A DNA stretch of 64,000 nucleotides from a virus, in the IMG/VR virus record IMGVR_UViG_3300036716_000695, positions 26,103 to 90,102 of that record; one strand, written 5' to 3'. Positions 2,853 to 27,536 of this stretch are shown piece by piece. Within the stretch, counting starts at the first letter, position 1. Every line of letters begins with the position of its first letter. Under the pieces are notes generated by a model. The model was not told the origin of the DNA and made no database searches. It was given only the letters and a program-made list of their open reading frames with translations. Made by a program: the position numbers and the translations under genes.

Positions 2853-3040
2853 TATTCTGCATGATATAGTGAGTCTATAAAGATACGTCTTTCACGTTCA
2901 TCCCTTATAGAATCTTGTTTGGTATAGATGATTGTGTCTTGACCATCTACGTACCAGTCTATCACGTTAGGGTCTTTATCCGGTTTATACTCCGATTTGC
3001 AACCTAGGCAAACCAAGAGTAATAACACACTAACCTTCAC
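2852..3040 (-). CDS. Small predicted lipoprotein (62 aa)
   Basis: The N-terminus MKVSVLLLLVCLGCKSEY is a short type II signal peptide with a lipobox-like LGC followed by Lys-Ser. The mature part (about 48 aa) is highly charged and rich in Asp, Glu and Arg. It would be anchored in the envelope. It is the last gene of the minus-strand nrd operon and overlaps the nrdA stop region by 11 bases, so it is probably translated by coupling. Its role is unknown. Small phage lipoproteins are often lysis (Rz1-like) or superinfection-exclusion proteins, but nothing here decides between these. Confidence 0.7.
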   Translation of the reverse strand: MKVSVLLLLVCLGCKSEYKPDKDPNVIDWYVDGQDTIIYTKQDSIRDERERRIFIDSLYHAE

Positions 3041-4655
3041 AACTAGAACACTCTAATATATTACGAGCAAAGTCTTGAGCACTACTCTTACTAAACTGAT
3101 AGTACAAAGTCTTTACACCTTCTTCCCAAGCATACATGTAAAGCTTATTAATATCTTTAGCTGATACTGACGGGTCAATCATTAAGTTTAATGACTGTGA
3201 CTGGTCAATGTACTTTTGTCTTTGTGCTGCTTGAAGTACGAGCTCTTTTGGAGATATCTCAACAAAAGACTTGAACACTGCTTTAGTAGGGAAATCTAAG
3301 TGTTGCACACTACCATCTTTCTTTAGGATAGACTTCCAAGTCTTGTCTGTATTTAGACCATAGGTTTCAAGTTCCTCTTCTAAGAAGGGATTCTTGTAAA
3401 TAGTCTTAGACTTAGCAAGATCCTTAATAAAGTAGTTAGACTTAATAGGCTCTATACCCATAGACACGGCACCGTGGATAAATGAACTAGACTTAGTAGG
3501 AGCAATAGCCATAAGAGTGGTGTTAGCATATCCTTCTCTAAGAGAAGTGTATCCATACTCATTATGCAATTCTCTAGAAGCAATCTCACTTCTATCTTTA
3601 AGTGTTCTAAAAATTTCACTGTTCAATCCTTTAGCTTGCAATGAGTCAAACTCAAGAAGCTTTGATTGAAACAAAGAGTGATATCCTAACACACCAAGAC
3701 CAATTGCTCTATGCTTCTCAGCAAAGTTAAACGCTCTCTTCATGCCCGGCATAGTCTCAGACTTAATAATGAATTCATCCATTACTGCATTTAAGAAATA
3801 CACATATGTTTCAATTGCATCAGTTTCTTTTATCTGGTCCCAATGTAATAGGTTAATAGAACCTAAGCAACATACAAAAGAATTATAACTATCAGTAGGA
3901 AGCTGGATCTCTGAACATAAATTAGATGCTGTGATATCCATTCCAAGTTCTTTATAAGGAGAATTGTTATTGGAGTTATCCTTAAACATAATATAAGGAA
4001 ATCCAAACTCACTCCTGTTCTGAATGATCTTAGCCCATACTTTACGTTTAGCTTTATCTCCTTCCTTCATTTCATTCATCCATTGATCAGTAACTGTAAC
4101 ACCATACTGTAAATTTTGTATAGGATTACCCTCTGTACCAATATCTAAGAACTCTAAGATATCCGCATGCTCAACTGGTAGGTATACTGCACAAGCACCA
4201 CGTCTGGCCTCAGACTGCTTGCAAACGTCCACTACAGTATCATATATCTTAGCGTAGTGCACTGGACCATCAGCAAAACCACCTGTAGATATTTCAGTTC
4301 CTCTTGCTCTAATGTTGCCAATAAAAGCACTTGTACCTCCGCCATATTTACTCATCATTCCAATTTCACGGCCTGCATTTAATATGCTATCTAAGTTATC
4401 ATCAACATTAGATCCGTAGCAGCTTATAGGTAAACCTTTTTGTTTACCAAAGTTAATCCATACAGGAGTAGACAAAGAGTAAAATCCTCTTGCCATATAA
4501 TCCTCAAACTTTTCTGCAAAGCCTTTTATATTCAAATACTTTTCTGCTTTAATAGCAATGTCTTTGATTCTTTGTTCAGGGCTTTCTGATATATACCCTC
4601 TTGATAAAAATGTGCGGCTGTCTTCATTCAGCCAGTAGTATTTATTATATTCCAT
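3030..4655 (-). CDS. nrdA: Ribonucleoside-diphosphate reductase class I, alpha subunit
   Basis: Reduces ribonucleoside diphosphates to deoxyribonucleotides together with the beta subunit encoded upstream (4873-5853). Visible catalytic features are the first redox Cys in SCYGS (residue 79), the NLCSE loop (Asn245, thiyl Cys247, Glu249), the partner Cys in FVCCLGSINL (262), the radical-transfer pair Tyr518-Tyr519 in KTLYYQ, and the C-terminal reducing pair CSSC (536/539). At 541 aa it is compact and begins directly in the catalytic part. The N-terminal ATP-cone of longer NrdA proteins is absent, so allosteric dATP shut-off is probably lost (inference). It supplies dNTPs for phage replication. 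Confidence 0.97.
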   Translation of the reverse strand: MEYNKYYWLNEDSRTFLSRGYISESPEQRIKDIAIKAEKYLNIKGFAEKFEDYMARGFYSLSTPVWINFGKQKGLPISCYGSNVDDNLDSILNAGREIGMMSKYGGGTSAFIGNIRARGTEISTGGFADGPVHYAKIYDTVVDVCKQSEARRGACAVYLPVEHADILEFLDIGTEGNPIQNLQYGVTVTDQWMNEMKEGDKAKRKVWAKIIQNRSEFGFPYIMFKDNSNNNSPYKELGMDITASNLCSEIQLPTDSYNSFVCCLGSINLLHWDQIKETDAIETYVYFLNAVMDEFIIKSETMPGMKRAFNFAEKHRAIGLGVLGYHSLFQSKLLEFDSLQAKGLNSEIFRTLKDRSEIASRELHNEYGYTSLREGYANTTLMAIAPTKSSSFIHGAVSMGIEPIKSNYFIKDLAKSKTIYKNPFLEEELETYGLNTDKTWKSILKKDGSVQHLDFPTKAVFKSFVEISPKELVLQAAQRQKYIDQSQSLNLMIDPSVSAKDINKLYMYAWEEGVKTLYYQFSKSSAQDFARNILECSSCEG

Positions 4656-4661
4656 ATTGTT

Positions 4662-4853
4662 TTAGTTTTTATTTCCGTTTTGTTTCCAATCAATCCAAAA
4701 GCCTATAGCCACCATTAAGTGTAAAAAAATAGACAGTGCATATTCATAAAAGTTATGCCAAGTAGCAAAATGCAAATGTACATGACCAATTATCCAAAAA
4801 GGTATAGCCATTTGCTGACTATACCATATAAGAAAAAATTTTATAAACTTCAT
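4662..4853 (-). CDS. Small membrane protein between nrdB and nrdA
   Basis: 63 aa with two hydrophobic, aromatic-rich segments (about residues 4-25 and 37-55) and a charged C-terminus. Histidines cluster in the middle (HVHLHF). It lies between nrdB and nrdA with 6- and 19-base gaps, so it belongs to the same transcript. No family is recognised. A glutaredoxin or thioredoxin would be expected at this spot in many phages, but this protein has no cysteine pair. Confidence 0.65.
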   Translation of the reverse strand: MKFIKFFLIWYSQQMAIPFWIIGHVHLHFATWHNFYEYALSIFLHLMVAIGFWIDWKQNGNKN

Positions 4854-4872
4854 CTCTCTTTGGTGTTAAAGG

Positions 4873-5853
4873 TTAAAAAAGATCATCTTCTGTAATAGAC
4901 TTACTTTTTTTATTATAATCAACACTCTTCTTATAAAAGAAATCTCCTTCTTTAGTGCCAGTAATTTCTATATCAAACCATTCTACTGCTTTCAATATTT
5001 CCTGATTTACCTCAAAGATGGGCTTCATACCTATCTTATCTAAAGAGTTGTTGAATCTGTTTCTTATAAAATGTTGTATTGTTTCTTTAGGTAGAAAACT
5101 AAGTTCTCCTTTCTCAAAGATCCAATCAAGTATACCACACTCTGCACTATAAGCTTTCATGCATGCAGAGTAGATCAAATCTTCAAATTCTTTATCAAAC
5201 CATTCTGGATTTTCTCTTTTGATTATATTAATAATCTCAGCACCAAAATTACCATGTATCTCCTCTTCTTTACTGGTGGCCTCAACAACATTAGATATAC
5301 CTTTAAGTACATTCTTTTCTTTGTTAAAGCTCATCATAATTAAGAACTGACTAAATAGACTTACGTGCTCTATAAATAAAGAGAATAATAATACAGACTT
5401 AGTATACATTTTATTGTCTCTAGAACGTGTACCATCTAGGTACTTTTTTAAGTACTTAAGTCTACCTTCTATTGCAGGCACTTCAACCACTGATTGAAAC
5501 TCTTTTTCTAAACCTAAGATTCTCAACAGTCTAGCATAAGCATCTTTGTGCCTAACTTCTGATTCAGCAAATGTAAATCCTACATCACCAATCTCAGTAA
5601 TAGGCATTCTTTTATATAGATCACCCCAAAAAGTTTTTACATTAACTTCTATCTGGGCAATTGCTAACATAGTTTTTTTAATAACATCCCTTTCTGCTGA
5701 TGTGATAGTTACTTTAAAATCTTGTATGTCTTCTGTAAAATTAAACTCAGTATCAATCCAATATGAATGTCTAATAGCATCTTTGTATGCTAGCAATTGA
5801 GGATACTCATAAGGTAATATGTTTTGTCTTGGTAAGAAAATGTTTTTATTCAT
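4873..5853 (-). CDS. nrdB: Ribonucleoside-diphosphate reductase class I, beta subunit
   Basis: Radical-generating ferritin-like subunit, 326 aa. Metal ligands can be placed by the family pattern: Glu99xxHis102 in ESEVRH, Glu162 in FIEHV, and Glu197xxHis200 in EEEIHG. The first ligand is most likely Glu69 (AQIEV), where many family members have Asp. Tyr106, four residues after His102, matches the radical tyrosine, so this looks like a tyrosyl-radical enzyme. The C-terminus (ITEDDLF) is the acidic/aromatic tail that docks into NrdA. First large gene of the nrd operon, with an A/T-rich leader. A terminator hairpin just upstream belongs to the preceding small gene. Confidence 0.96.
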   Translation of the reverse strand: MNKNIFLPRQNILPYEYPQLLAYKDAIRHSYWIDTEFNFTEDIQDFKVTITSAERDVIKKTMLAIAQIEVNVKTFWGDLYKRMPITEIGDVGFTFAESEVRHKDAYARLLRILGLEKEFQSVVEVPAIEGRLKYLKKYLDGTRSRDNKMYTKSVLLFSLFIEHVSLFSQFLIMMSFNKEKNVLKGISNVVEATSKEEEIHGNFGAEIINIIKRENPEWFDKEFEDLIYSACMKAYSAECGILDWIFEKGELSFLPKETIQHFIRNRFNNSLDKIGMKPIFEVNQEILKAVEWFDIEITGTKEGDFFYKKSVDYNKKSKSITEDDLF

Positions 5854-9830: not shown

Positions 9831-12800
9831 ATGAGCATATTTATACAAGAGGTATTAGGCCTTTTAACAAGAAAAGAAATCAAGAAAGAAATTAATCCTA
9901 AAACAGATTGGTTACAACTTGGTCACAAAAAACAAAGTAAATTAACTGGTACATCCTTTACACCAAAAATGGAACCTTATGCTATTAAAGCACAAGATTT
10001 TATTTGTACGGTGACTAAAGGGTTAACTAGAACTATACAAGGATCAGGAAAAATAGGTTTTGTTCCTGTATATACTGAAACAGATGGAGTATGTAGTCTA
10101 AAAGCATTAAAAGATAGTATCATAACTCAAGATCTTGCCAATCAAACAATTTCTGTAAATGGAAATCTTCTTGTTAAAGGTGATACATCATTAAATGGAA
10201 ATGTCAGATTAGGAACTGGTGGTATAGGTTTTAAAACATCTTTTGAATCAGTAGTTGTAGATGTTAATGGTCAACAGGGTCAACCAAATCAAGTTCTTAT
10301 TGCTCAACCAGATGGTACCGTAATATGGAAAGACCAAGCCGGTGGTGGTACTTGTGTATGGCAAGTTGGTGGTGATAATGGTTTTGTTGTAGATTGTAGT
10401 GATGTAGTTTTATTTATAGGTGGTGATAAGCTTACTGCATTTCCAAATGCTGCTAATAAAAGTGTTACATTCAATCATGATAAAACGGTTGTTAATGTAG
10501 TTTCTCAAAATGTTGATCCAGGTTTTGGGGATTCTTTTGATGCTGTCTTTGAAGTAAGAGTAGATGATTATGGTCATGTAGATGGAATTACTACAAGTAA
10601 AATTACTTTACCTGAAGAAACTACTTATACTCTAAAAGGAGAAATATCAGGCACAGATGATTATGCTATATCCTTATCAGATTCAAATGGAGGAACAAGT
10701 GAGGTACTCTTAAAAGCAGGAACTAATATTACTTTACAAGATGACGGTAATGCTACAGTAACAATAAAAGCAGCAGGTGGAGGTTCACCAGTAATGACAT
10801 CTACAGTTACCGGAACAGGTAAACTATGGAGTGATGTTGTACAAGCACAACCAGCAGCAGCTGTATCAGATACAGATCAAAGAACATATGGAGTTCAATT
10901 TAATGATGCATCACAACTTGTTGTTAATGTACCATGGGTTGAAGGATCAGGTTCTGTTGTAGTTGGTAACCCAGGTAATCCTACAATAGATTTAACTTCT
11001 ATAAGTATAGATGGTACTGTTTATGGTATTGCATCAGGCGGTGGAGGATCAGTAACCAGTGTTGGTTTAGCTGCACCTTCAGCATTCACTGTAACTAATA
11101 GTCCTGTAACAAGCAATGGAACATTAACTCTTGCAGGTGCAGGAGCAACAACAGATTATATAGATGGGACAGGTGCTTTACAAGCTTTTCCTTCTATTCC
11201 AAGTGTACCAGCAAATATAGTTGAGACAGTAGATACACAAAATGGTACATACATTGATATGACACCAACAGGTGCTGTAGATGGAGATGTTGTTGTAACA
11301 GCAGAATTATCAGCAGTAGACGGAGCAGATACTTCAGGTAGATTCTTAAGTAAAGATAACGTATGGTCAGCAATTCCTGGAGGTAATGCAGGAACTGTAA
11401 CTAGTGTTGGCTTAAGTACAGATATTGCAGCATTCACAGTTGGAAGTTCTCCTGTAACAGATAATGGTGTAATAGAACTAAACCGTAATGGAGGAACTGC
11501 AGGTCAGTTTTTAAGACAAGATGGTAATTGGGCAGATATTCCTTCAGGAGGAACAGTAACTGCTCTTTCAACAGAAGTAACTCCAGTTGTAGCAGATTCA
11601 ATTGACTTTACTGTAGCTGATCCAACAACAACGCCTAAATTAACTATAGACTTTAAAGGAGTAGCTGGACAGTATATAAATGGAGAAGGTCAATTAGAAA
11701 CATTCCCTACTATCCCACCGGCATCAGAAGATGTTAAGTTTAAAATTGATGCAGCAGATACTGTAGCAGGATATTGGACTGATAAAATAACAATAGGTTC
11801 AGGTTTATCAGGTTCAGTTAATACAGATCCAAGTGGTGAAAAAACATTAACAATAAGTGCTGTATCAGTTACTACAGTAAATAGTATTAAGGTAGGAAAC
11901 ACTACTACTTCTGGAGCGTTTGAGTTTACAGGACCGGGTGTTACAATGGATACTAATCCAAATCCTCAACTAATTACTTTTGCAAGTGTATTATCATTAG
12001 GAGCAACAACAGCAGGTGATGCATTAGATGTTGCAGTAACAAATGATAGTAGTAATACAGGAGATAGTACACTAGACTTTACTTGGGCAGGATCTGCATC
12101 TGAGTATATAAACGGTCAAGGTAACTTAGTTACTTTCCCAGCAATAACAACAGGTACTGTTGAATCAATAAGCACATCATGGCCAAGCGGTGCAAATGTA
12201 GCAATGACTTTAACAGAAGTAAATTTATCTGGACCAGATGTACAGCTAAATTGGAATGTTCAAGGTACTACAGCACAATACATAGATGGTACTTTTAAAC
12301 TACAAACATTCCCAACAATACCAGCAGAATATACTGGTTGGAGTTTAGTTGGAGATTTAGGAAGTGCACAACAAATAAAAACAGGTAATACTGCATTAAT
12401 AGCAGGTGGTGTTGGTTTAACATCAACAGCAAGTGCAACAGATACATTAACTATTGATTTAGATGACACAGCAGTAACTCCAGGTGCATATAGTAATGCA
12501 GATGTAACTGTAGATCAGCAAGGTAGAATTATAAGTATCCAAGATGGAGCAAGCTCAGCAAGACCTTATAAATCATATGTTGCTAACTTCTCAATTGTTA
12601 ATAATGTTGTGGCTGTTAATATACTAGAAGATGAGCTTCAAGTACAAACTAATTGGTCTGATGACAGCCTTGGTAAAATATCTATATCATTCCGTCAAAA
12701 TTTTGACAAGAAAAGAGTTATGGTGTTCATTAATGGAATGAGTGGTGAAAAAGGAGGCGGTGGTCAAATATTCTTTGACGATGTAATTTCTGGAGTATCA

Positions 12801-12899
12801 GAGTTAACAGTGAATTGTGTACATCAAATAGTTAGCAGTGGTGCTATGACAAATGCAAATGTTGATTTTGGAAGTTTTGAATTTAGATTATATGACTAA
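9831..12899 (+). CDS. Large fibre protein (1022 aa)
   Basis: The N-terminal ~60 residues (MSIFIQEVLGLLTRKEIKKE, then LQLGH...LTG...IKAQDFI) match the fibre-like proteins at 7495 and 41669. The body is Gly/Thr/Ser/Val-rich with many imperfect repeats of the form TVTSVGL...F.V..SPVT..GT..L followed by a QFLRQDGNW or DYIDGTG type turn. These are typical of long phage tail fibres built from beta-solenoid or stacked beta modules. A distinct, non-repetitive C-terminal domain (last ~110 aa) may be the tip. Ends with a terminator. Receptor binding is inferred. Confidence 0.8.
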   Translation: MSIFIQEVLGLLTRKEIKKEINPKTDWLQLGHKKQSKLTGTSFTPKMEPYAIKAQDFICTVTKGLTRTIQGSGKIGFVPVYTETDGVCSLKALKDSIITQDLANQTISVNGNLLVKGDTSLNGNVRLGTGGIGFKTSFESVVVDVNGQQGQPNQVLIAQPDGTVIWKDQAGGGTCVWQVGGDNGFVVDCSDVVLFIGGDKLTAFPNAANKSVTFNHDKTVVNVVSQNVDPGFGDSFDAVFEVRVDDYGHVDGITTSKITLPEETTYTLKGEISGTDDYAISLSDSNGGTSEVLLKAGTNITLQDDGNATVTIKAAGGGSPVMTSTVTGTGKLWSDVVQAQPAAAVSDTDQRTYGVQFNDASQLVVNVPWVEGSGSVVVGNPGNPTIDLTSISIDGTVYGIASGGGGSVTSVGLAAPSAFTVTNSPVTSNGTLTLAGAGATTDYIDGTGALQAFPSIPSVPANIVETVDTQNGTYIDMTPTGAVDGDVVVTAELSAVDGADTSGRFLSKDNVWSAIPGGNAGTVTSVGLSTDIAAFTVGSSPVTDNGVIELNRNGGTAGQFLRQDGNWADIPSGGTVTALSTEVTPVVADSIDFTVADPTTTPKLTIDFKGVAGQYINGEGQLETFPTIPPASEDVKFKIDAADTVAGYWTDKITIGSGLSGSVNTDPSGEKTLTISAVSVTTVNSIKVGNTTTSGAFEFTGPGVTMDTNPNPQLITFASVLSLGATTAGDALDVAVTNDSSNTGDSTLDFTWAGSASEYINGQGNLVTFPAITTGTVESISTSWPSGANVAMTLTEVNLSGPDVQLNWNVQGTTAQYIDGTFKLQTFPTIPAEYTGWSLVGDLGSAQQIKTGNTALIAGGVGLTSTASATDTLTIDLDDTAVTPGAYSNADVTVDQQGRIISIQDGASSARPYKSYVANFSIVNNVVAVNILEDELQVQTNWSDDSLGKISISFRQNFDKKRVMVFINGMSGEKGGGGQIFFDDVISGVSELTVNCVHQIVSSGAMTNANVDFGSFEFRLYD

Positions 12900-14888: not shown

Positions 14889-15722
14889 TTAAAATATATA
14901 TCTGATTGTTTTTATAGAAAAATACTTTGAATAAATTTCTTTAAATTCAGATAACAACCTTCCTTTATGTTCTAAAGGATATCTCATAACTCCTGATTGA
15001 TTCTTAATTTCATAAGATCTTCTCATCAACTCTCTTGCTTCTGGTGTTGTTTTAATCATTTGCTTAACATGATTAGTTAAAGCAATAACTTCACATTTAT
15101 TTTCACCTGCTACATCTTTTACCATAGAAAAAAGATTATTATACTCTTCTTTCCAACCGGGGTAAAAAATTAAAGGGCTATAATTTAAATGTACTTCCCA
15201 GCCCAATTTCTTAAGCCTATTAATATCAGCTATACGGCTTACTATCTTTTGCATCTTAGGTTCTAATATATTAGAATACTTCTGAGGCATAAGACTTACA
15301 CGTACCCGTGGTGGTTTATTAAAGTGATTTACATCTAACTTTAACAACCCTGGATACTTAGTGGCCATAGTACTATTAAGTTGTGGGTGATTATCAAACC
15401 TCTTAAGATAATCAATCAAAGGTTCAGGCATGTGTTTCTGCATCAGTACTAAATCTGAATTGCAGGCAACATCTACCATAGTATATATAGGGTCTTGTTG
15501 ATCAGGGACTTTAGTAAATTCCTTTTCCCATTCAACAACAGACTCATAAATCTCATCAACGTTCTTGTTAACAAAAACTCTTTTACCATTATATCTAGAC
15601 ATATAACAATATGTATCTACACAGCCTCCAAAACACCCATATATGATGTTTGGAGCTATGCAATTACTACTATTATTATTTGTTTTGGTAATTAAAGTTT
15701 TGGTTTTCTGAACTTTAATCAA
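14889..15722 (-). CDS. SPL-like radical SAM protein with CX3CX4C motif
   Basis: 277 aa. The N-terminal YGCFGGCVDTYCYM resembles the cluster loop of spore photoproduct lyase-like radical SAM proteins (GC...C..CY), and the following RYNGKRVFVNKNVDEIYE matches their next block. The cysteine spacing here is CX3CX4C, not the usual CX3CX2C. Later segments (DVACNSDLVLMQK, KKLGWEVHLNYSPLIFYPGW) fit a partial TIM barrel. The start codon is TTG at 15722, overlapping the mazG stop (TTGA); no ATG precedes the Cys motif. Substrate unknown; DNA photoproduct repair is possible but not shown. Confidence 0.68.
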   Translation of the reverse strand: MIKVQKTKTLITKTNNNSSNCIAPNIIYGCFGGCVDTYCYMSRYNGKRVFVNKNVDEIYESVVEWEKEFTKVPDQQDPIYTMVDVACNSDLVLMQKHMPEPLIDYLKRFDNHPQLNSTMATKYPGLLKLDVNHFNKPPRVRVSLMPQKYSNILEPKMQKIVSRIADINRLKKLGWEVHLNYSPLIFYPGWKEEYNNLFSMVKDVAGENKCEVIALTNHVKQMIKTTPEARELMRRSYEIKNQSGVMRYPLEHKGRLLSEFKEIYSKYFSIKTIRYIF

Positions 15723-19615: not shown

Positions 19616-20212
19616 TTATTTAGGCAAATATACATTACATTCTTTTAATAAAGAAAGAAATGCACCATTTTTATTAATAACTGTTTCTTTTATCAAGTCT
19701 GGCGGGCTGCATAATTCAAACACATCTTCTAAAAGTTCTACTTCAACATCTAGCTCATCAGCATAAAATTCATGAAATCCTTCTGGTGATAAAAATGCTT
19801 CAACAAAGTCTGAAGATTTAGAATCACTAAAGAAATCTATAATTATTACCTTAGAGTTTAAACTAAATTGAGAATATTTTCCTTTTAGAAATTTGTTAAA
19901 GTCACTTTTATAGCCTGAGAAATCAAAAACAAATAAATGTTTATTATCTCCCAGGTCTATATACTCATCAAATTTAGGATGGTTTCTTATGTATCTTTTA
20001 CAGAACTTATCAAATGAATCACACATTTTAACTTTGTATTCACAAAGAAATTTGTAATCATCAAAAGAGTGCACATTATCCATAGCTATATAAGTTTGCT
20101 TTGGAACGTATGCCAATCCTTTCTTTAAATCCAATAAAGGATAAAGAAAGACCCTACTCTTCTGAAAATAATCTGTATACACAATACCCATACTATAATC
20201 TAACTTTTTCAA
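19616..20212 (-). CDS. Hypothetical protein (198 aa)
   Basis: Mixed alpha/beta protein rich in Phe, Tyr and Asp (SKVIIIDFFSDSKSSDFVEA), with an acidic stretch ADELDVEVELLEDVFELC. It overlaps the nuclease gene upstream by 20 bases. No catalytic motif can be named with confidence. It is in the same operon as the RecE-like nuclease. Confidence 0.65.
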   Translation of the reverse strand: MKKLDYSMGIVYTDYFQKSRVFLYPLLDLKKGLAYVPKQTYIAMDNVHSFDDYKFLCEYKVKMCDSFDKFCKRYIRNHPKFDEYIDLGDNKHLFVFDFSGYKSDFNKFLKGKYSQFSLNSKVIIIDFFSDSKSSDFVEAFLSPEGFHEFYADELDVEVELLEDVFELCSPPDLIKETVINKNGAFLSLLKECNVYLPK

Positions 20213-21191
20213 TTAAGAAATTATAAGGTAAGCTATAATTTCTTTCATTATAATGGTATTCTGCAGCCTTAATTACATTACTAAAAGCTTGCGCCCATTT
20301 ATTAAGTGTAGCATCTGTAACTTCAAAAGTATAAACTTGGTTATATTTATCTATAACAACAAACTTAAACTCAATCTTATACTCATCTACATTATCAATT
20401 GATTTACTTATATCTTCATAAACAAGTTTACAATAAATAGCAGCTTGAAGCCAGTAGTTATAAAACTCTACTGTATCATTAAAGTCAGCTATTGTTTTAC
20501 CTGTAGTTTTAAGATCACATATAGTTATAAGCTTCTCATCATGATTAACTTTATAGTAATCTATGTAACCATGCAAACCAAAAGGCATTTTAGATAATGT
20601 ACAACTCAGATATTTTTCTGCATGAGTTTCTATTGGGTCTAAATCAAAGTCTGTTGAAACTTCTTCAAATATTGCCATAACATCACTGTTACTTTTAATA
20701 AACTCTGCCTGCTCTGTACACTTTAATAAAGTATCTTGATCTACAACATCAACGTTTTTGTTAGATAAGAATTCCCAATAAGGTTCAAACTCATCTTTTA
20801 TAATCTTAACAATACGTTGCTCATCTGTTTTTAGAGACTGATACAAATTCATTTCTTTGAGTGAATCCAATACTATTTCAGATGGGACATCAAATAACTT
20901 TTCTGCATCAGTATATAAAGACATGTTCTTTAAAACCTTTCTAACACTATCTGATGGTGCTTTACCAGGTACAATACTAAACTTGTTCTCAACGTTTTCA
21001 GGTTCAAACACCAAACAATGTACAAGCTTGCCTTCTACTAAATGTTTATCTGTTCTAACCTCACGGTCATTTAAAATATAGTCCTTATAAAATAAGGATG
21101 GTGAAAATAAAAGTTTATTTAAAGAAGAGTAGCTAAACTTAAATTTATCATTTGAGTAAAACTGCTCTTCTTTTTCAATGTTTCTATTCAT
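20193..21191 (-). CDS. PD-(D/E)XK exonuclease, RecE/PDDEXK_1-like
   Basis: 332 aa. SYSSLNKLLFSPSLFYKDYI and EGKLVHCLVFEP at the N-terminus match the entry motifs of RecE/exodeoxyribonuclease VIII-type nucleases. The catalytic core is GLHGYIDYYKV (Asp) and ITICDLKTTGK (D-x-K), followed by YNYWLQAAIYC, the QxxxY motif. It would resect dsDNA ends to feed the Sak4-like annealase/recombinase and SSB encoded upstream in the same direction. The start overlaps the preceding gene by 8 bases. Confidence 0.85.
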   Translation of the reverse strand: MNRNIEKEEQFYSNDKFKFSYSSLNKLLFSPSLFYKDYILNDREVRTDKHLVEGKLVHCLVFEPENVENKFSIVPGKAPSDSVRKVLKNMSLYTDAEKLFDVPSEIVLDSLKEMNLYQSLKTDEQRIVKIIKDEFEPYWEFLSNKNVDVVDQDTLLKCTEQAEFIKSNSDVMAIFEEVSTDFDLDPIETHAEKYLSCTLSKMPFGLHGYIDYYKVNHDEKLITICDLKTTGKTIADFNDTVEFYNYWLQAAIYCKLVYEDISKSIDNVDEYKIEFKFVVIDKYNQVYTFEVTDATLNKWAQAFSNVIKAAEYHYNERNYSLPYNFLIEKVRL

Positions 21192-22350
21192 TAATTGAGT
21201 TATTATATTTTTCCTTTAATACAAGATGTTCTAAATCAACTTTAAATACTTCAGCTCCTGGTCCTACCATTGCATTTAAGCATTTATTGAGAAATAAAGA
21301 TCTGGTATTGTCAACAGCAAATTTAGTTAATTTTCTATCTTCTGTCAAAGCCATGATGTATCTATTATAAGAATAAACATTATTAGTATCATGACCACCT
21401 TCATATGATTTTAACCGTGACCTCATAGCTTTTACATTTACTGTATTCCAATTATTAGTAGCTTTCATCCAATCATAGTGCCACCAATACAAACTAGATA
21501 CTACATTAAATGATTTTTCTATATTAGAATTAGCTAGCATTTCAAGAGCCAATGTTCTATTTTCTATATCATTACTTGTAATCATCTGTTCTATGGTACC
21601 GTATTGATCATCTTCAATAATTGCTAAATCTTCATCAATTATTTCAGTTATTGCAGTATCAAATACAACAGTAGCTACAGAATTAACAACTCTATCATAA
21701 TCTTTAACTTTACCTTTTTCAATCATAACTACTCTAGATCCTAGATTTGCTGCTTCATGAAAAGGTTCTGTAATCTTAAGAAATTGGTCTCTCCATAACT
21801 GAACATTATTACTACTATTATAGTAGTGTTGATTAAAAGCAACAATAGAGTTTTGATCCATTCCAGATAGTTTTTCTCTAAGCTGATTAAGAGCTCCATC
21901 AGTAAACATACCTTTCTCTTTTGCTATAATACAAACTCTAACGAAGTCTCTGTAATCTAAAAATTTATTACTATACCAATTGTATGTGAATAAAGATTCT
22001 AAAAACTTATATGACACTACATGTATGTCTGCCTTATCACTATTCCTAGTAATTTTACAATCAAACCTTTCCTTTAACAAATCAAACTTTTGTCTTGGTA
22101 AGTTTAATTTAGGATATCTATAAATCTTTACATCTTGTAAGCTAATAACAGATGGTTGCTGTTTACCAGTAACTATGTTATGTAACCCAAAATTTGCAAG
22201 ATCATCACCTGATAAATGATAGTTATCACTACTACCAACATACAGTTCATCTGTTAGTTCTATATCAAATGCTCCAGATGTTAGTTCAACGTTTTTGTTG
22301 ACTGTAACATCATCTCTCTTTAAATTAAAATTATATATTTTTTTAGTCAT
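21184..22350 (-). CDS. AAA+/VWA module companion protein B (388 aa)
   Basis: Not recognised by family. Around residues 80-105 it has LPRQKFDLLKERF-DCKITRNSDKADIHVVS. A similar block occurs in the adjacent upstream gene (LPK...RLKAALKEHGITVTNDYELADLIIG), and a second region (TLALEMLANSNIEKSFNVV) also aligns loosely, so the two are probably diverged paralogues. The block recalls the first half of a BRCT fold, but this is only a pattern impression. It overlaps both neighbours by 8 bases, so the order MoxR - companion A - companion B - nuclease is one coupled unit. Confidence 0.6.
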   Translation of the reverse strand: MTKKIYNFNLKRDDVTVNKNVELTSGAFDIELTDELYVGSSDNYHLSGDDLANFGLHNIVTGKQQPSVISLQDVKIYRYPKLNLPRQKFDLLKERFDCKITRNSDKADIHVVSYKFLESLFTYNWYSNKFLDYRDFVRVCIIAKEKGMFTDGALNQLREKLSGMDQNSIVAFNQHYYNSSNNVQLWRDQFLKITEPFHEAANLGSRVVMIEKGKVKDYDRVVNSVATVVFDTAITEIIDEDLAIIEDDQYGTIEQMITSNDIENRTLALEMLANSNIEKSFNVVSSLYWWHYDWMKATNNWNTVNVKAMRSRLKSYEGGHDTNNVYSYNRYIMALTEDRKLTKFAVDNTRSLFLNKCLNAMVGPGAEVFKVDLEHLVLKEKYNNSINE

Positions 22351-23380
22351 TTTTTAAATATTTTTGATATTCTTTTTTTACAGCTACTTTAAAAGTATAA
22401 AGATCCCTGTTATGAATGCTTATTTCTTTTCTTACTATAGGTTCTAAATATCTGAAACTTGTTTTACATAACAATTCTCTCTCTTCTAACCAAAGTATCA
22501 TGTCCTGAGCACTCTTTCTTTCAAAATCAAGAAATCCAGATTCTTTTAACCAATACTGTAGATCTTTATCTCTGTTATCTGCATATGTTATACTACTACA
22601 GTCTTGTGAAAATTGCCATAATAAATGATAATTTTTTTTATAATCTATAGTAGGAACAATTTTAAGAGCTAAGGCCTTATCATCACCATAAGCCTTTAAT
22701 TGCGCTTTTAAATCATTAAACAGACCTTCATCAAGAGTCATTTTAGTAGCAGATGCATGTAACACAGTCTCAGGATCAATAACACTAACATGTGTGGTAT
22801 CAATTATATGAGCCAAGTTTATAGCCATACCAGTAAGCATCCAGGTATCATATAGACTATCATTTATATCTATATCATAATATCTTACATTGTCTGTAAT
22901 CTTAGGTGTAATAATACATTCTAAACCAGAATCTGAGACTTTTTTTAGGACACCTGTTTTTGTTGCATCTCCCATTGTAGTTTCATAATTCCATATCTTA
23001 TTCATCATTATAGTAGACGGGATATTTTCCGCATTCTGTAATGTATGAGTAGAAATATCCTCATGCCCAATTATAAGATCTGCTAATTCATAATCATTTG
23101 TAACAGTTATACCGTGCTCTTTAAGAGCAGCCTTTAATCTATCTTGTGATACATTACACTTAGGTAGTATAAAAGCTTTCTTTTTGGTTCTAAAAGTTTG
23201 GTCATCTTCTGTGGGGACCGTTAATATACTGTGTATTTTTTCATATGTTGTTTGATCTTGAGTACATAATACTTTATTACAGTCTGTATTAGAGAGGACA
23301 CCATAAACGGTGTCACTCTCCAATGCAAAGTAATTTAAAGCATCAGTATCAAAATCTTGATATACTGATTTATTTGCCAT
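22343..23380 (-). CDS. AAA+/VWA module companion protein A (345 aa)
   Basis: Unknown family. It contains AFILPKCNVSQDRLKAALKE followed by HGITVTNDYELADLIIGHE at about residues 68-105, the BRCT-like half-fold shared with the downstream gene. The rest is alpha/beta with a helical C-terminus (SIHNRDLYTFKVAVKKEYQK). It begins one base after the MoxR ATPase stop and runs 8 bases into companion B. The fixed position right behind the ATPase suggests it is an adaptor or substrate of the ATPase (inference). Confidence 0.6.
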   Translation of the reverse strand: MANKSVYQDFDTDALNYFALESDTVYGVLSNTDCNKVLCTQDQTTYEKIHSILTVPTEDDQTFRTKKKAFILPKCNVSQDRLKAALKEHGITVTNDYELADLIIGHEDISTHTLQNAENIPSTIMMNKIWNYETTMGDATKTGVLKKVSDSGLECIITPKITDNVRYYDIDINDSLYDTWMLTGMAINLAHIIDTTHVSVIDPETVLHASATKMTLDEGLFNDLKAQLKAYGDDKALALKIVPTIDYKKNYHLLWQFSQDCSSITYADNRDKDLQYWLKESGFLDFERKSAQDMILWLEERELLCKTSFRYLEPIVRKEISIHNRDLYTFKVAVKKEYQKYLKND

Positions 23381-23381
23381 T

Positions 23382-24650
23382 TTATTTCATTGTCATTTTA
23401 ACAATCTCAGGGATCATCATTAATTTATTGAACTTTTGTTTATTACCACTAAATATTGATCTTACAATCAAATATTTTAAGTCATTAGTAAAATAGTCTT
23501 CAGTACATAGTGTCTTTAGTCTATCTGTATTCTTTTGACTTACGGTATTTTCTTTAGAATACACAACAGCATAATTTGCTAAACGTGTAGCTAATGTAGA
23601 TGCTATATCAGCACGGTAATTATCATCCTTACCAATACAACTTCTAAGTTCACCTAAAATATATTGCTGATTATCATGTGTCAACAAATCTTTTGGTGTT
23701 ACAAGCTTATCAAGTTTATTATTAATGAAGGTTGTGAACATTGATGCAAAAGCATCACCTACACTACCCTCACCAATCATTTGAATCATGCTGAGGTTAT
23801 CTTCAAAATTATCAAAACTTGATATAGCATTAAAGAATGTAGTAATAGATCTTGCATTTGTTTCTTGAGTTACTAACTCAGGATTCAATAACAAAAAGTT
23901 AATACATCTAGAATCTACACCTGCTTCTTCTGCCCATTGAGCCCATACATTAACATCAAACTTAAGATTTGCGGTTACATATCTAGTCTTCTGTGCACTA
24001 TCTACACTGTTAACCATATAATCTCCGTTATCCGGGTTAGCTGTTAATATAATATGCCAATCCTGTGGTAGTGTCCATGAAATATAAGACTGTCTGTCAA
24101 TCAATTCCATACAAGCTTGAATAAAACGTACATCAGCACGGTTCCAGTCATCTAGTAATAAGATACCACCTGATTTTTTATCAGCAATCCACTCTGGTGG
24201 ACAATAAGACATTCTGTTCTTACCAGTCATTTTGTATCCATTTTTTAGATACTCTTGTACAGCAAGTTCATCAACCCATAAACCAACTTTTTTGGTTTTT
24301 GCTTGAGGCATCTTTGCCAGAGATGATGATGCAGCAGCTCTTTGTGCAGCAGTATAAGATATGTCATTTTTATTTTCTGAAACTTTTGTCTCTTTATACA
24401 TTTGGAATTGTCTAACTGGGAAACCTACTAAGTCACCTAGCTCTTCTATCTGTGCTAAGTTTAACTTAACAAAGTTTAAATCATTCTCTTTAGCTAGTTC
24501 AACAATGGTTGACGTTTTACCAATACCTGATTCACCAACAACCTCAACAGATACAGATTGCTTACCTTCTTTTTGTAAGAATCTGTTGTTTGTGATTATG
24601 TGGTTTACAAATCCTTTTAGTTCTGTAGCATTTAAATTTACTTGACCCAT
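23382..24650 (-). CDS. MoxR-type AAA+ ATPase
   Basis: 422 aa. Walker A GESGIGKTS (residues ~39-47), Walker B GGILLLDDWNRAD, and a sensor-1-like TANPDNGDYMVNSVD with an Arg-finger region KTRY give a MoxR/dynein-branch AAA+ protein. MoxR ATPases act as unfoldase/chaperones with von Willebrand factor A proteins; exactly such a partner is encoded next door (24666-25829). The leader AAAAAAGTAAAAATGG is the strong type seen before other abundant products. It probably forms a hexamer that remodels a replication or host complex; the target is unknown. Confidence 0.88.
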   Translation of the reverse strand: MGQVNLNATELKGFVNHIITNNRFLQKEGKQSVSVEVVGESGIGKTSTIVELAKENDLNFVKLNLAQIEELGDLVGFPVRQFQMYKETKVSENKNDISYTAAQRAAASSSLAKMPQAKTKKVGLWVDELAVQEYLKNGYKMTGKNRMSYCPPEWIADKKSGGILLLDDWNRADVRFIQACMELIDRQSYISWTLPQDWHIILTANPDNGDYMVNSVDSAQKTRYVTANLKFDVNVWAQWAEEAGVDSRCINFLLLNPELVTQETNARSITTFFNAISSFDNFEDNLSMIQMIGEGSVGDAFASMFTTFINNKLDKLVTPKDLLTHDNQQYILGELRSCIGKDDNYRADIASTLATRLANYAVVYSKENTVSQKNTDRLKTLCTEDYFTNDLKYLIVRSIFSGNKQKFNKLMMIPEIVKMTMK

Positions 24651-24665
24651 TTTTACTTTTTTAAT

Positions 24666-25829
24666 TTAATTTAGTTTTATCTTTTGTCCTGGTAATTCAT
24701 CATTTATCTCTGATATACTGCTATGTACCCATAGGGTATTTTTTGGACAGTCATCAGGAGAATATGCTTCACCGTCTGTTAAATATATAAGAGCTGTATA
24801 AACTCCTTTCTTTTCATTATAGTGATCAATTACTGGTTGGAAGCTTGTTCCACCACGACCATGTATTTCCCAATCTTTTTTAGGATTGAATTCTTTTACA
24901 CTTTTAAGCTGTGTATCACACTGTGCAACTGTAATCTTATGACCAGTTTTATGCATATGTGCTAACTCAGAGAAGAATTCTTTTAGTTCTTCTGTATTTA
25001 CAGATCCTGATGTATCAACACCAACAAGTATGTGATTCTTAAACTTTATCTTTAAACCTGGATTCTCAGAATAACGTTTATTATACTTACGTCTCATTTT
25101 TCTAGTGTAAACTATACTTGAATTACCAACAAACCTTCTTAAGTAAGCTTTCCAATTAAACTTTGCAGGTTCAACATGCATTAACTTGTGAATTAGTTCT
25201 GCTAACTCTCCTGGCACACTACCTTGCTTTTTAAGAGTTTCTTGTGTTGCTTCCTTAAGCTGATGATCAACCTGTTTTTGTACAAGCTTTTTATCTGCTT
25301 CAGATAAATCATCAAATTCATTCCATGTACCATGACAATATTGTGATTCACCATTCATTTCATCCATTAGATTATCTAATGAAGGAGAACTCCCATCTTG
25401 CTGCGCTTGTTCCAAAAGTTTATAATATTCTTTTGTTCCTGCTTTAGTAGGAAGATTTAATTCAGGAAAACTTGAGAGTAATAAACCACCTTCAGGTAAT
25501 TTACTTTCCAGTATGTACTGGTTGATCTCTAAATCAGCAGCTATGTTAAATAACTTATGATTAGAATATAGATCTCTCATTACTAAGTGCCCAAATGCAA
25601 TGTGTAATAGCTCATGCTTTACCAAACCATACCTATGATCTTCACTTAAGTTTAAGTAAAAATCAGGATTGATTGTTAACTGCATGCCAATACCGTGTTT
25701 ACTAACACCTGCTGTAGGTATTTTATCACTGTATTGTTTATTTATACCAATTAAAAAAAGCCCGTAAAAGGGCTCTTCAAATATTAAACTTTTAGTTGTC
25801 CGTGCAACTATATCTTGTATGTTCATCAT
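24666..25829 (-). CDS. DUF2201-type VWA protein with metallopeptidase domain
   Basis: 387 aa, two domains. The N-terminal metallopeptidase-like part has VKHELLHIAFGHL (His72, Glu73, His76 and a further His81) and AADLEINQYI downstream. The C-terminal VWA part has the MIDAS set VDTSGSVN, GGTSFQP and YLTDGE. This N-peptidase/C-VWA arrangement is the DUF2201 family, usually paired with MoxR AAA+ ATPases, as here. It may be an active zinc protease or a metal-inserting or remodelling cofactor. All zinc ligands and MIDAS residues appear intact. Confidence 0.88.
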   Translation of the reverse strand: MMNIQDIVARTTKSLIFEEPFYGLFLIGINKQYSDKIPTAGVSKHGIGMQLTINPDFYLNLSEDHRYGLVKHELLHIAFGHLVMRDLYSNHKLFNIAADLEINQYILESKLPEGGLLLSSFPELNLPTKAGTKEYYKLLEQAQQDGSSPSLDNLMDEMNGESQYCHGTWNEFDDLSEADKKLVQKQVDHQLKEATQETLKKQGSVPGELAELIHKLMHVEPAKFNWKAYLRRFVGNSSIVYTRKMRRKYNKRYSENPGLKIKFKNHILVGVDTSGSVNTEELKEFFSELAHMHKTGHKITVAQCDTQLKSVKEFNPKKDWEIHGRGGTSFQPVIDHYNEKKGVYTALIYLTDGEAYSPDDCPKNTLWVHSSISEINDELPGQKIKLN

Positions 25830-25831
25830 AT

Positions 25832-26122
25832 CTATATAATTTTATCTAATATTTTTTTATAAGTTTCTTCATTATATGTACCACCAATATCAATAAGTAT
25901 ACATTTTATTGTAAGAGAACCTAAAGAATATTTAATGTTTCTACTTTTCAAAAACAATTTTCTTGCATCATAATGCAAAGCTTTAGCAAATAGCTTATCA
26001 GTTATATATTTATCTTGTAACTCTAAACTATTATAACAATGCATTCCTAAATCAAAATCAACAGGTAGGCCATTAAGTAATCTTAAAATATTAAAGAAAT
26101 CACTTTTCTTTATTACATTCAT
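25832..26122 (-). CDS. Hypothetical protein (96 aa)
   Basis: Soluble small protein (SDFFNILRLLNGLPVDFDLG at the N-terminus, TIKCILIDIGGTYNEETYKK near the end). It overlaps the RusA-like gene by 23 bases and ends two bases before the VWA gene, so it belongs to this operon. Not recognised. Confidence 0.6.
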   Translation of the reverse strand: MNVIKKSDFFNILRLLNGLPVDFDLGMHCYNSLELQDKYITDKLFAKALHYDARKLFLKSRNIKYSLGSLTIKCILIDIGGTYNEETYKKILDKII

Positions 26123-26498
26123 CAGTTAATATTTCTATCCATACTCCAGGATTCTGTTTATCATATGTATATTGAATAAATACAGGAAGAATAAACTCTG
26201 CATTATCATCCTCAATCCAACCCGCTTTAACCATATCATCTTGAACTGTTTGTGCAGGATTGATGTAATCAAATTTATGTTTGGTACCCCTTACAAATGT
26301 AAAAGATATCTTAGCCGGCAAAGTACATTTAGATAATTCTGCTTTAAACTCTTCAGCATACTTTTCATAGTATTCTTTAGTAAGCTTTCTATAGTTAACT
26401 ACTGTCTTACTAGCTATAAAGTATTTACCCGTCCATCTTCTTCCATTTTTACTGGAAGGTACGGAACCTGGTATCCACCATTTTTTTGGTTTTTTCAT
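26100..26498 (-). CDS. rusA: RusA-like Holliday junction resolvase
   Basis: 132 aa. Conserved RusA features: an N-terminal basic PSSKNGRRW, then the acidic centre HKFDYINPAQTVQDDMVKAG followed by WIEDDNAEFI and a C-terminal strand GVWIEIL. The Asp residues in FDYIN and DD form the metal site of this family. It resolves recombination intermediates made by the Sak4/RecE-like system of the same arm. Length matches the family (about 120-140 aa). Confidence 0.85.
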   Translation of the reverse strand: MKKPKKWWIPGSVPSSKNGRRWTGKYFIASKTVVNYRKLTKEYYEKYAEEFKAELSKCTLPAKISFTFVRGTKHKFDYINPAQTVQDDMVKAGWIEDDNAEFILPVFIQYTYDKQNPGVWIEILTDECNKEK

Positions 26499-26499
26499 A

Positions 26500-27474
26500 T
26501 TATTTATTAAGTGTTTGCTTTAGTAATGGTTTTAATGCTTCATGTAACTTATCAAAGCCATGTTTTTCCATAGCATCTGATATGTCTTTGCATATAGTTA
26601 AGTAACATCCTTGAATATTATATGCATTTGCATATCTTTCAATTGCTTTAAAACCTGCTTCATCATTATCAAACAATGTAATAACCTTTTTATACTTTTT
26701 TTTAAAGTTTTGTATAATGTGAGGTTTAATTATAGTATTCTCTGAGTCTGGTGCTACAACTTCAACGTTATAACCCATACTTTTTAAACACATTGCATCT
26801 TTTAATGATGAACATATTACTAAATAAGGTTTCTCATATTTCAATTGATCTAGTCCCTGAAGATAAGTATTAACTTTATGAAATCTATGTTTACTCTTGG
26901 GTTGATATATTTTATATACTTCTCCATGTTTATTAAAGTAACCATAAATTCTTGGTGCCTGTATTTTCAATGTATTAATGTGGCCATCTTCTTGCTTTAT
27001 GAGATTATAATACTCAATTGGCTTGACATTATACAAATCCAACATAGACATACCTATCCTATAGGATAACCAGTAATCTGCATCTAATTGATTCCAAGGT
27101 CTGTGTTTTATAAAATCCACTTCCCATTTAGATACAGGTTTAAATTCAATTTTAGCTTTACCATTCTGCTTGACATATATATTATAGTCAGATATAATTT
27201 TCATTACAGCTTTAGTATAACCAATATTAAACATAAGTTTTACTAAGTCAACTTTATTACCATTATTACCAGTTGAGAAGTCTTTAAATTTATATTGACT
27301 TATTCTTGGGTCAACATAAACACAAAAGCTTGGTGTTTTCTCATTAGGATTAAATACTGAATGTATTTTTATATCCTGTCCTGTTAAGGTTTCTGATAAA
27401 TTTAAATAATATTGAAACACCCAATAACTTGGTATATCATCTATTTCTAATACTAAATTTTTAGTGTTAAACAT
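26500..27474 (-). CDS. DnaG-type primase with TOPRIM domain
   Basis: 324 aa from the ATG at 27474 (MFNTKNLVLEIDD). The frame's earlier ATG lies inside the upstream terminator, so it is rejected. The N-terminal ~100 residues resemble a primase zinc-ribbon/entry fold (NPNEKTPSFCVYVDP, YKFKDFSTGNNG) but lack the CHC2 cysteines. The TOPRIM core follows: LVICSSLKDAMCLKSMGYN (Glu replaced by Ser-Ser-Leu-Lys context), VITLFDNDEAG with the DxD-type Asp pair, then KDISDAMEKHG. Synthesises primers with the DnaB-like helicase (29454). Confidence 0.83.
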   Translation of the reverse strand: MFNTKNLVLEIDDIPSYWVFQYYLNLSETLTGQDIKIHSVFNPNEKTPSFCVYVDPRISQYKFKDFSTGNNGNKVDLVKLMFNIGYTKAVMKIISDYNIYVKQNGKAKIEFKPVSKWEVDFIKHRPWNQLDADYWLSYRIGMSMLDLYNVKPIEYYNLIKQEDGHINTLKIQAPRIYGYFNKHGEVYKIYQPKSKHRFHKVNTYLQGLDQLKYEKPYLVICSSLKDAMCLKSMGYNVEVVAPDSENTIIKPHIIQNFKKKYKKVITLFDNDEAGFKAIERYANAYNIQGCYLTICKDISDAMEKHGFDKLHEALKPLLKQTLNK

Positions 27475-27486
27475 ATTAATCAAATT

Positions 27487-27514
27487 GAAAAAAAAAGGGG
27501 GCATTACACCCCCT
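27487..27514 (-). terminator. Intrinsic terminator (minus strand)
   Basis: AGGGGG / CCCCCT stem with a 7-nt loop followed by nine T on the minus strand. It ends the SSB-like gene transcript; the primase start lies just beyond it. Confidence 0.92.
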
Positions 27515-27536
27515 CTAATTTTAGGTTAATTTCTGA

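Follow-up and report, generated by a model that had tools for sequence, protein, structure and literature searches.

MoxR-type AAA+ ATPases work with VWA partner proteins in RavA-ViaA and other cellular pairs, and in the MoxR-vWA ternary conflict systems a third component such as VMAP is added (2020, PMC7159879); statements on published work, here and below, refer to the available portions of the cited texts. Phages encode such pairs as well. In phage N4 (Schitoviridae) gp24 and gp25 are listed as an ATPase and a vWFA protein of unknown function in a 2009 roseophage paper (PMC2784036), and both fall within the 14-gene core of N4-like phages, again with no known function (Chan and others 2014, PMC4193335). 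A 2021 paper on jumbo phages described a MoxR-vWA pair with an N-terminal metallopeptidase and proposed a role in virion assembly (PMC7824862). The present study concerns a locus of the 90-kb IMG/VR virus record IMGVR_UViG_3300036716_000695, of which positions 26,103 to 90,102 were analysed as one stretch of 64,000 nucleotides, here called the window. Four open reading frames (ORFs) were confirmed at 21184-25829 on its minus strand; they encode a DUF2201 protein with a VWA domain (VWA protein), a MoxR-type ATPase and two companion proteins, C1 and C2. An initial annotation had put the whole set forward as the best candidate for an undescribed system in the window. This does not hold for the pair, which is that of N4 gp24/gp25 and has also been reported in jumbo phages; what appears to be new here is a third-component family, the companions, tied to the known pair. 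As far as the searches reach, this family is apparently undescribed: the literature searched, from which preprints and most subscription papers are absent, covers the MoxR/VWA pair and yields nothing on the companion. In the available text of a 2021 paper on crAss-like phages (PMC7886860) AAA was matched twice, and VWA, RusA and metalloprotease not at all.

The N4 proteins belong to the same two families as the pair of the window and carry the same HExxH and metal-ion-dependent adhesion site (MIDAS) patterns; both gave profile matches at the N4 locus, where they are encoded close together, and trees support the homology. The N4 locus differs in gene order (ATPase then VWA, whereas the module has VWA then MoxR), in a Walker B motif that reads LDE instead of LDD, and in the absence of any companion by profile from the retrieved stretch. 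The pair of the group 2.2 jumbo phages has the same architecture as that of the module, but a companion is neither mentioned in the available text (PMC7824862) nor found at the locus of RaK2. In contrast to RavA-ViaA, the VWA protein of the module bears an HExxH peptidase domain and a third, BRCT-like component is present. The ternary conflict systems share the combination of MoxR, vWA and a third protein; however, their third protein is of another kind, VMAP being set apart by its description, while that of the module is BRCT-like plus HEAT-like and encoded in phage replication operons.

The genes of the module are tightly packed: VWA and MoxR stand 15 nt apart, a single nucleotide separates MoxR from C1, and overlaps of 8 nt occur both between C1 and C2 and between C2 and the following RecE-like gene. 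Close relatives in viral contigs comprise at least 121 distinct MoxR genes; per query the best 80 of several hundred relatives were kept, so that the following counts describe close kin. Leaving out the window's own minus-strand locus, C1 follows MoxR in 90/90 loci that extend 1,000 nt or more past MoxR, and C2 is present in 83/83 loci that extend 2,300 nt or more past it. Part of this set had been retrieved with C1 or C2 as query, but among loci retrieved by VWA or MoxR alone the figures, with the same minimum lengths, are 66/66 for C1 and 61/61 for C2. Whether the four genes always travel together, a check named in the initial annotation, has a split outcome. Within the lineage no locus of sufficient length lacked the companions, and the catalytic residues are conserved. 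Outside of it no companion exceeded chance by profile at any of 14 other phage loci with the VWA gene, and tblastn with C1, C2 and the companions of L313 and L324 (L-numbers are the locus labels of this analysis) found no relative in 50,697 phage records.

An alignment-based query extended the companion family to 22-31% identity. Among the IMG/VR contigs obtained (L313-L360), MoxR lies at most 700 nt upstream in 48/48 companion loci, which represent 37 distinct companion proteins, and VWA precedes MoxR in 46 of them, the two exceptions beginning inside MoxR at the contig end. The companion loci fall in at least two genomic contexts, and the companion is located near replication or recombination genes wherever the neighbours are readable. 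Quartet loci that reach far enough have the module between primase/RusA and RecE/DNA polymerase, and eleven loci (L313-L323) have one companion between MoxR and RecE. No RecE or PHROG 1252-type polymerase is present in the 4.9-6.9 kb after the companion in L333-L335; the trio of L334 is surrounded by helicase, primase/helicase-like, Sak4-like and primase genes. A primase gene stands directly before VWA in L339 and L342, the latter also having a Sak4-like gene (these contigs end 767 and 550 nt past the companion), and L346 has a RecE-like gene 0.5 kb past the companion, with no polymerase match in the 5 kb covered. Thirteen companion-bearing VWA and 13 MoxR sequences each form one clade (support 100/99 and 100/100), and each of 17 whole records contains one C2-type companion, as counted with a profile that is blind to C1. 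Some lineages have one companion and the lineage of the window has two; the unit conserved across lineages is three genes (VWA, MoxR and one companion), and the fourth looks like a duplicate.

Neither C1 nor C2 is significantly matched by any family of Pfam, PHROGs or NCBIfam, and a sequence search of the PDB with companion profiles gave nothing for C1; a YqeY match of the C2 profile (0.013) was taken as chance. AlphaFold models reached a mean predicted local distance difference test score (pLDDT) of 84.6 and a predicted template modelling score (pTM) of 0.61 for C1 (pLDDT of the five models 84.6 to 69.2), and of 87.2 and 0.69 for C2. When the models were compared with PDB chains by VIA-align, BRCT domains dominated the lists of both at Z of about 4-7.4, the top row for C1 being the N-terminal module of SMARCC1 (Z 8.0), and HEAT/ARM-type proteins matched the C-terminal part of both models at Z 3-5. 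Four viral proteins are matched by both models, with E 3e-7 to 8e-6 for C1 and 1e-8 to 2e-6 for C2; a crAss-like virus encodes one of these proteins and a single podovirus two of them, and whole-chain TM-scores (template modelling scores) are only 0.29-0.39. With moderate confidence, both companions are predicted to combine, at the fold level, a BRCT-like with a HEAT/ARM-like domain.

The initial annotation had called C1 and C2 probably paralogous, and they do look like paralogues, though strongly diverged ones. A direct profile comparison gives only E 0.002, but the single-companion proteins of other lineages bridge the two: in profile-profile comparison the single companion of L313-L323 matches C2 at E 6e-9 over 280 columns and C1 only at 0.03, and all ten of these companions scanned were matched by the C2 profile (7e-12 to 2e-8) as well as by the C1 profile (4e-9 to 0.012; all small-database figures). 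The duplication was not dated by the tree, which has support of 44/13 and long branches. Three loci (L327:6962-7411, L328:6342-6836 and L331 from 6396) have, in the C1 position, a small first companion of 149-164 aa that resembles the C-terminal helical part only.

Evolutionary rates were expressed as median protein distance relative to the DNA polymerase for ten operon genes at the 53 loci having all ten. MoxR (0.62) is the slowest and C2 (3.0) the fastest of the ten; between them stand VWA (0.85), d138 (1.0), RusA (1.1), primase (1.6), C1 (1.6; 1.62 at two decimals), RecE (1.7) and d198 (2.4). For 42 close pairs the values are MoxR 0.74, RusA 0.78, VWA 1.1, C1 2.3 and C2 3.0. The variation of C2 is concentrated in residues 1-60 (identity 0.22-0.29) and 121-220 (0.13-0.31), while the BRCT-like and HEAT-like cores are kept (0.74 at 81-100; 0.61-0.72 at 261-320). 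A motor that stays constant while the recognising part varies agrees with an adaptor role.

The HExxH and MIDAS motifs of the VWA protein, already noted as intact in the initial annotation, are invariant in their key residues (Table 1), as are the MIDAS residues T328 and D352 and an AADLEINQ stretch in the same 88 rows. Pfam recognises DUF2201_N (1.9e-18; 67.5 bits, cut-off 23.2) and DUF2201 (6.6e-16; 59 bits, cut-off 26.4), NCBIfam has no match for the protein, and PHROG 1314 matches at 1.4e-64. The label of that PHROG, HNH endonuclease, was rejected for the VWA protein because Pfam assigns it to DUF2201 and neither its zincin nor its MIDAS residues vary. The same label on many records of the DUF2201/VWA family is probably a propagated error. 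MoxR was identified by PHROG 1297 (ATPase, 4e-35) and by alignment with annotated MoxR-like phage ATPases; in Pfam it stays under the cut-offs (AAA 18.7 bits versus 21.2, E 0.0024; AAA_5 14.8 versus 22), and NCBIfam gives a weak replication factor C match (0.003), far under its cut-off. Its motif labels, Walker A and B, sensor 1 Asn and Arg finger, were assigned in this analysis; N205 (sensor 1) and R223 (putative Arg finger) do not vary across the 82 MoxR rows. Across the companion-bearing lineages Asp replaces Glu of Walker B in 44 of 53 MoxR ORFs and in three more full-length ones, the other six being fragments, whereas MoxR of other phages mostly has LDE or similar. The strict Walker A pattern occurs in 9 of 12 full-length MoxR proteins of other phages; those of N4, RHph_X3_15 and RHph_TM29 have Ser for the first Gly and retain GxGK[ST].

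Both genes are interrupted in some relatives. In three loci the gap that splits MoxR just after Walker B contains a group I intron (RF00028, about 90 bits; L313:1467-1724, L320:5952-6205 and L322:4475-4732), and at L345:244-1444 a 1.2-kb gap divides the MoxR gene. Insertions of about 1.1 kb interrupt the VWA gene near the HExxH codons in two lineages (L195/L196/L198, 5546-6675; L320/L321, 2757-3846); in L195 and L320, the two scanned, Rfam detected no intron at this place. Phage introns usually insert at conserved sites of important genes.

Beyond the companion-bearing lineages the pair is widespread. The VWA protein found 438 of the 50,697 phage records by tblastn, all below 60% identity and including LIT1, N4, RaK2, PBS1 and S-TIM5. 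At the 14 other phage loci VWA is present in 14/14, each with HExxH and DxSxS patterns (in phiFa the aligned MIDAS reads DTSGS, and the first DxSxS match falls elsewhere), and MoxR in 13/14, phiKT1024 having none in the retrieved stretch. Read from the annotations, nine of these loci lie near nucleic-acid or nucleotide genes (LIT1, N4, RHph_X3_15, RG-2014, RHph_TM29, pYD6-A, the Moorella phage, phiFa and PBS1), while the neighbours in AD45 and PA5oct fit neither a nucleic-acid nor a virion grouping clearly. Three companion candidates were dismissed: the best companion-profile match at the 14 loci (E 0.0043), to a 111-aa ORF of L004, and one of the C2 profile (0.00073) to an open-ended ORF of L004, annotated as putative chitinase, were taken as chance, and a 669-aa protein after MoxR in the Alteromonas phage AD45, considered as a fused C1-C2, had no support.

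The module forms a coupled set inside a replication/recombination operon (Table 1). RusA upstream and the RecE-like nuclease downstream were found as first annotated, with a 96-aa ORF between RusA and VWA. Past the RecE-like gene come two unknown ORFs (198 and 138 aa), another of 110 aa and a DNA polymerase gene (PHROG 1252). For the primase, a start at 27471 appears likelier than one at 27504 because the latter overlaps a terminator-like hairpin; with this hairpin as a possible boundary, the module may sit in one transcription unit.

Table 1. Features of the module and its surroundings (window coordinates).
Feature	Position	Strand	Remarks
DUF2201 protein (zincin-like metallopeptidase N-terminal, VWA C-terminal)	24666..25829	-	387 aa; Pfam, PHROG
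HExxH motif, DUF2201 residues 72-76	25602..25616	-	H72, E73, H76 invariant in 88 rows
MIDAS motif DTSGS, DUF2201 residues 272-276	25002..25016	-	D272, S274, S276 invariant in 88 rows; aligned across eight diverse sequences
MoxR-type AAA+ ATPase	23382..24650	-	422 aa; PHROG 1297
Walker A, MoxR residues 39-46	24513..24536	-	invariant in 82 rows
Walker B LLLDD, MoxR residues 164-168	24147..24161	-	81/82 rows, one row gapped; Asp where LDE is usual
Companion C1	22343..23380	-	345 aa; predicted BRCT-like domain and C-terminal helical domain
BRCT-like core of C1, about residues 61-135	22976..23200	-	AlphaFold and VIA-align; last BRCT helix matched from residues up to 213
Companion C2	21184..22350	-	388 aa; predicted BRCT-like domain, variable middle, HEAT/ARM-like C-terminal domain
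BRCT-like core of C2, about residues 70-124	21979..22143	-	AlphaFold and VIA-align; last BRCT helix matched from residues up to 243
HEAT/ARM-like helical region of C2, about residues 231-312	21415..21660	-	AlphaFold and VIA-align; conserved block 261-320
RecE/exonuclease VIII-like PD-(D/E)XK nuclease (context)	20193..21191	-	Pfam, PHROG; downstream of C2
RusA-like Holliday junction resolvase (context)	26100..26498	-	Pfam, PHROG; upstream of VWA
96-aa ORF between RusA and DUF2201 gene	25832..26122	-	poorly conserved; unrecognised in many relatives
DNA primase (context)	26500..27471	-	Pfam, PHROG; upstream of RusA
Terminator-like hairpin directly before primase gene	27494..27516	-	consensus match only

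We tentatively favour a function of the module as an ATP-driven machine that remodels or cuts proteins and is directed by the companions to nucleoprotein targets in phage replication and recombination. The place in the operon, the strict linkage, the invariant motifs and the rate pattern are the reasons for this preference, and we regard such a function as quite possible, if just short of probable. We assume that a MoxR ring would work together with the DUF2201 protein, the VWA/MIDAS face of which would engage a client or the companion. The zincin domain, a putative peptidase, may cut the client. The companion, either C1 together with C2 or the single family member, would be the adaptor that brings the machine to replication/recombination nucleoprotein complexes, where proteins would be taken apart, matured or removed. 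Rfc1, the clamp loader subunit with a single BRCT domain, offers a solved precedent, in that this domain helps its AAA+ machine to load onto DNA; the comparison is one of working principle only, as MoxR is not a clamp loader. The initial interpretation of the locus is partly supported, and a pair bound to an adaptor-like third protein in a replication/recombination operon would give a handle on the function of N4 gp24/gp25, namely to find the binding partner of the companion.

Several observations weigh against this proposal. Operon context indicates company and not the client, and the fast evolution of C2 may be relaxed constraint. The BRCT Z values of about 4-7.4, with one row of 8.0, are in the range that VIA-align grades as middling; in a plain Foldseek search of the PDB with C1 the BRCT rows had E 0.1 or worse and ranked below a chance-like reductoisomerase row. 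Pfam BRCT is weak for C1 (14.1 bits versus a cut-off of 21.3; E<=0.1 in 11 of 69 members, best 0.0083) and reaches E<=0.1 in 0/68 members of C2, and the Thr-Gly phosphate-binding motif of Rfc1 is not among the conserved columns of the C1 or C2 alignments. Finally, the use of the VWA protein may differ between phages, because its gene has virion genes nearby in RaK2, S-TIM5 and phiKT1024. A more specific version, distinctly unlikely in our view, would be an AAA+-powered metalloprotease for DNA-bound proteins, in which MoxR pulls, the zincin cuts and the BRCT-like/HEAT-like adaptors read DNA ends or nucleoprotein, so that blocks or crosslinked proteins are cleared during replication and RecE/RusA recombination. 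Wss1/Spartan with Cdc48 would be its counterpart by a different route.

The fast evolution of C2 can also be read as a sign of host takeover or counter-defence, with a machine that remodels or cuts a host or defence protein recognised by the companion. Such a role would suit the pair of N4 and LIT1, which is located a few genes past RNA polymerase 2 among small unknown genes, and the patchy spread of other phage metallopeptidases has been read as a sign of host targets (PMC7824862). However, the companion was seen near replication/recombination genes only, where neighbours are readable, and the presence of the pair in the 14-gene core of N4-like phages with different hosts (PMC4193335) suggests a basic function; PADLOC-DB gives short stray matches only (Cas13a, 0.0063, for MoxR; a homing endonuclease model, 0.00039, for C2 residues 112-167). 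We consider takeover rather unlikely.

A peptidase-bearing chaperone of virion assembly was proposed for the jumbo-phage pair by analogy with an archaeal virus (PMC7824862). The three VWA genes near virion genes mentioned above agree with it, the PA5oct ATPase bears an electrospray ionisation tandem mass spectrometry (ESI-MS/MS) note, and the stretches of N4, RHph_X3_15 and RG-2014 also hold a head-decoration or Ig-type structural gene. Yet N4-like loci are found near RNA polymerase, dCTP deaminase, helicase or DNA polymerase genes, and in the window the plus strand carries the terminase, portal-like and head genes whereas the module belongs to a minus-strand replication/recombination block, so that for this module we judge assembly unlikely. 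Some MoxR/VWA pairs act on cellular metalloenzymes, and metal-cofactor insertion into, or activation of, the phage ribonucleotide reductase would be a comparable task: both class I subunits are encoded in the window (3030-5853), and the large subunit is present in 8/8 other quartet-lineage records tested. This explanation is disfavoured and appears highly improbable because the pair is carried without the large subunit in 8/8 records of other companion-bearing lineages (77-126 kb; these may be incomplete) and in N4.

As to the origin of the window, 122 phage records match its terminase, with identities near 25%; those listed are gut phages of the cr-series and similar ones, and Flavobacterium phages, which we take to be crAss-like phages, as is the uncultured phage of the window. 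A related polymerase occurs in Cellulophaga phage phi14:2, placed in Crassvirales by its record; no MoxR or VWA protein is annotated within about 14 kb on either side of the related polymerase (less at record ends) in this phage, the Nitrincola phage or TaPaz, a statement that concerns annotation only. The four loci obtained in a MoxR scan of genome contigs are spread over metagenome bins that belong to three different bacterial groups, and hence no host can be named. The window further encodes two very large plus-strand ORFs (19-2817 and 9831-12899; 932 and 1022 aa) that have no Pfam match at E 0.001, and, in the same minus-strand block as the module, a spore photoproduct lyase-like protein (14889-15722; Pfam SPL 6.5e-17).

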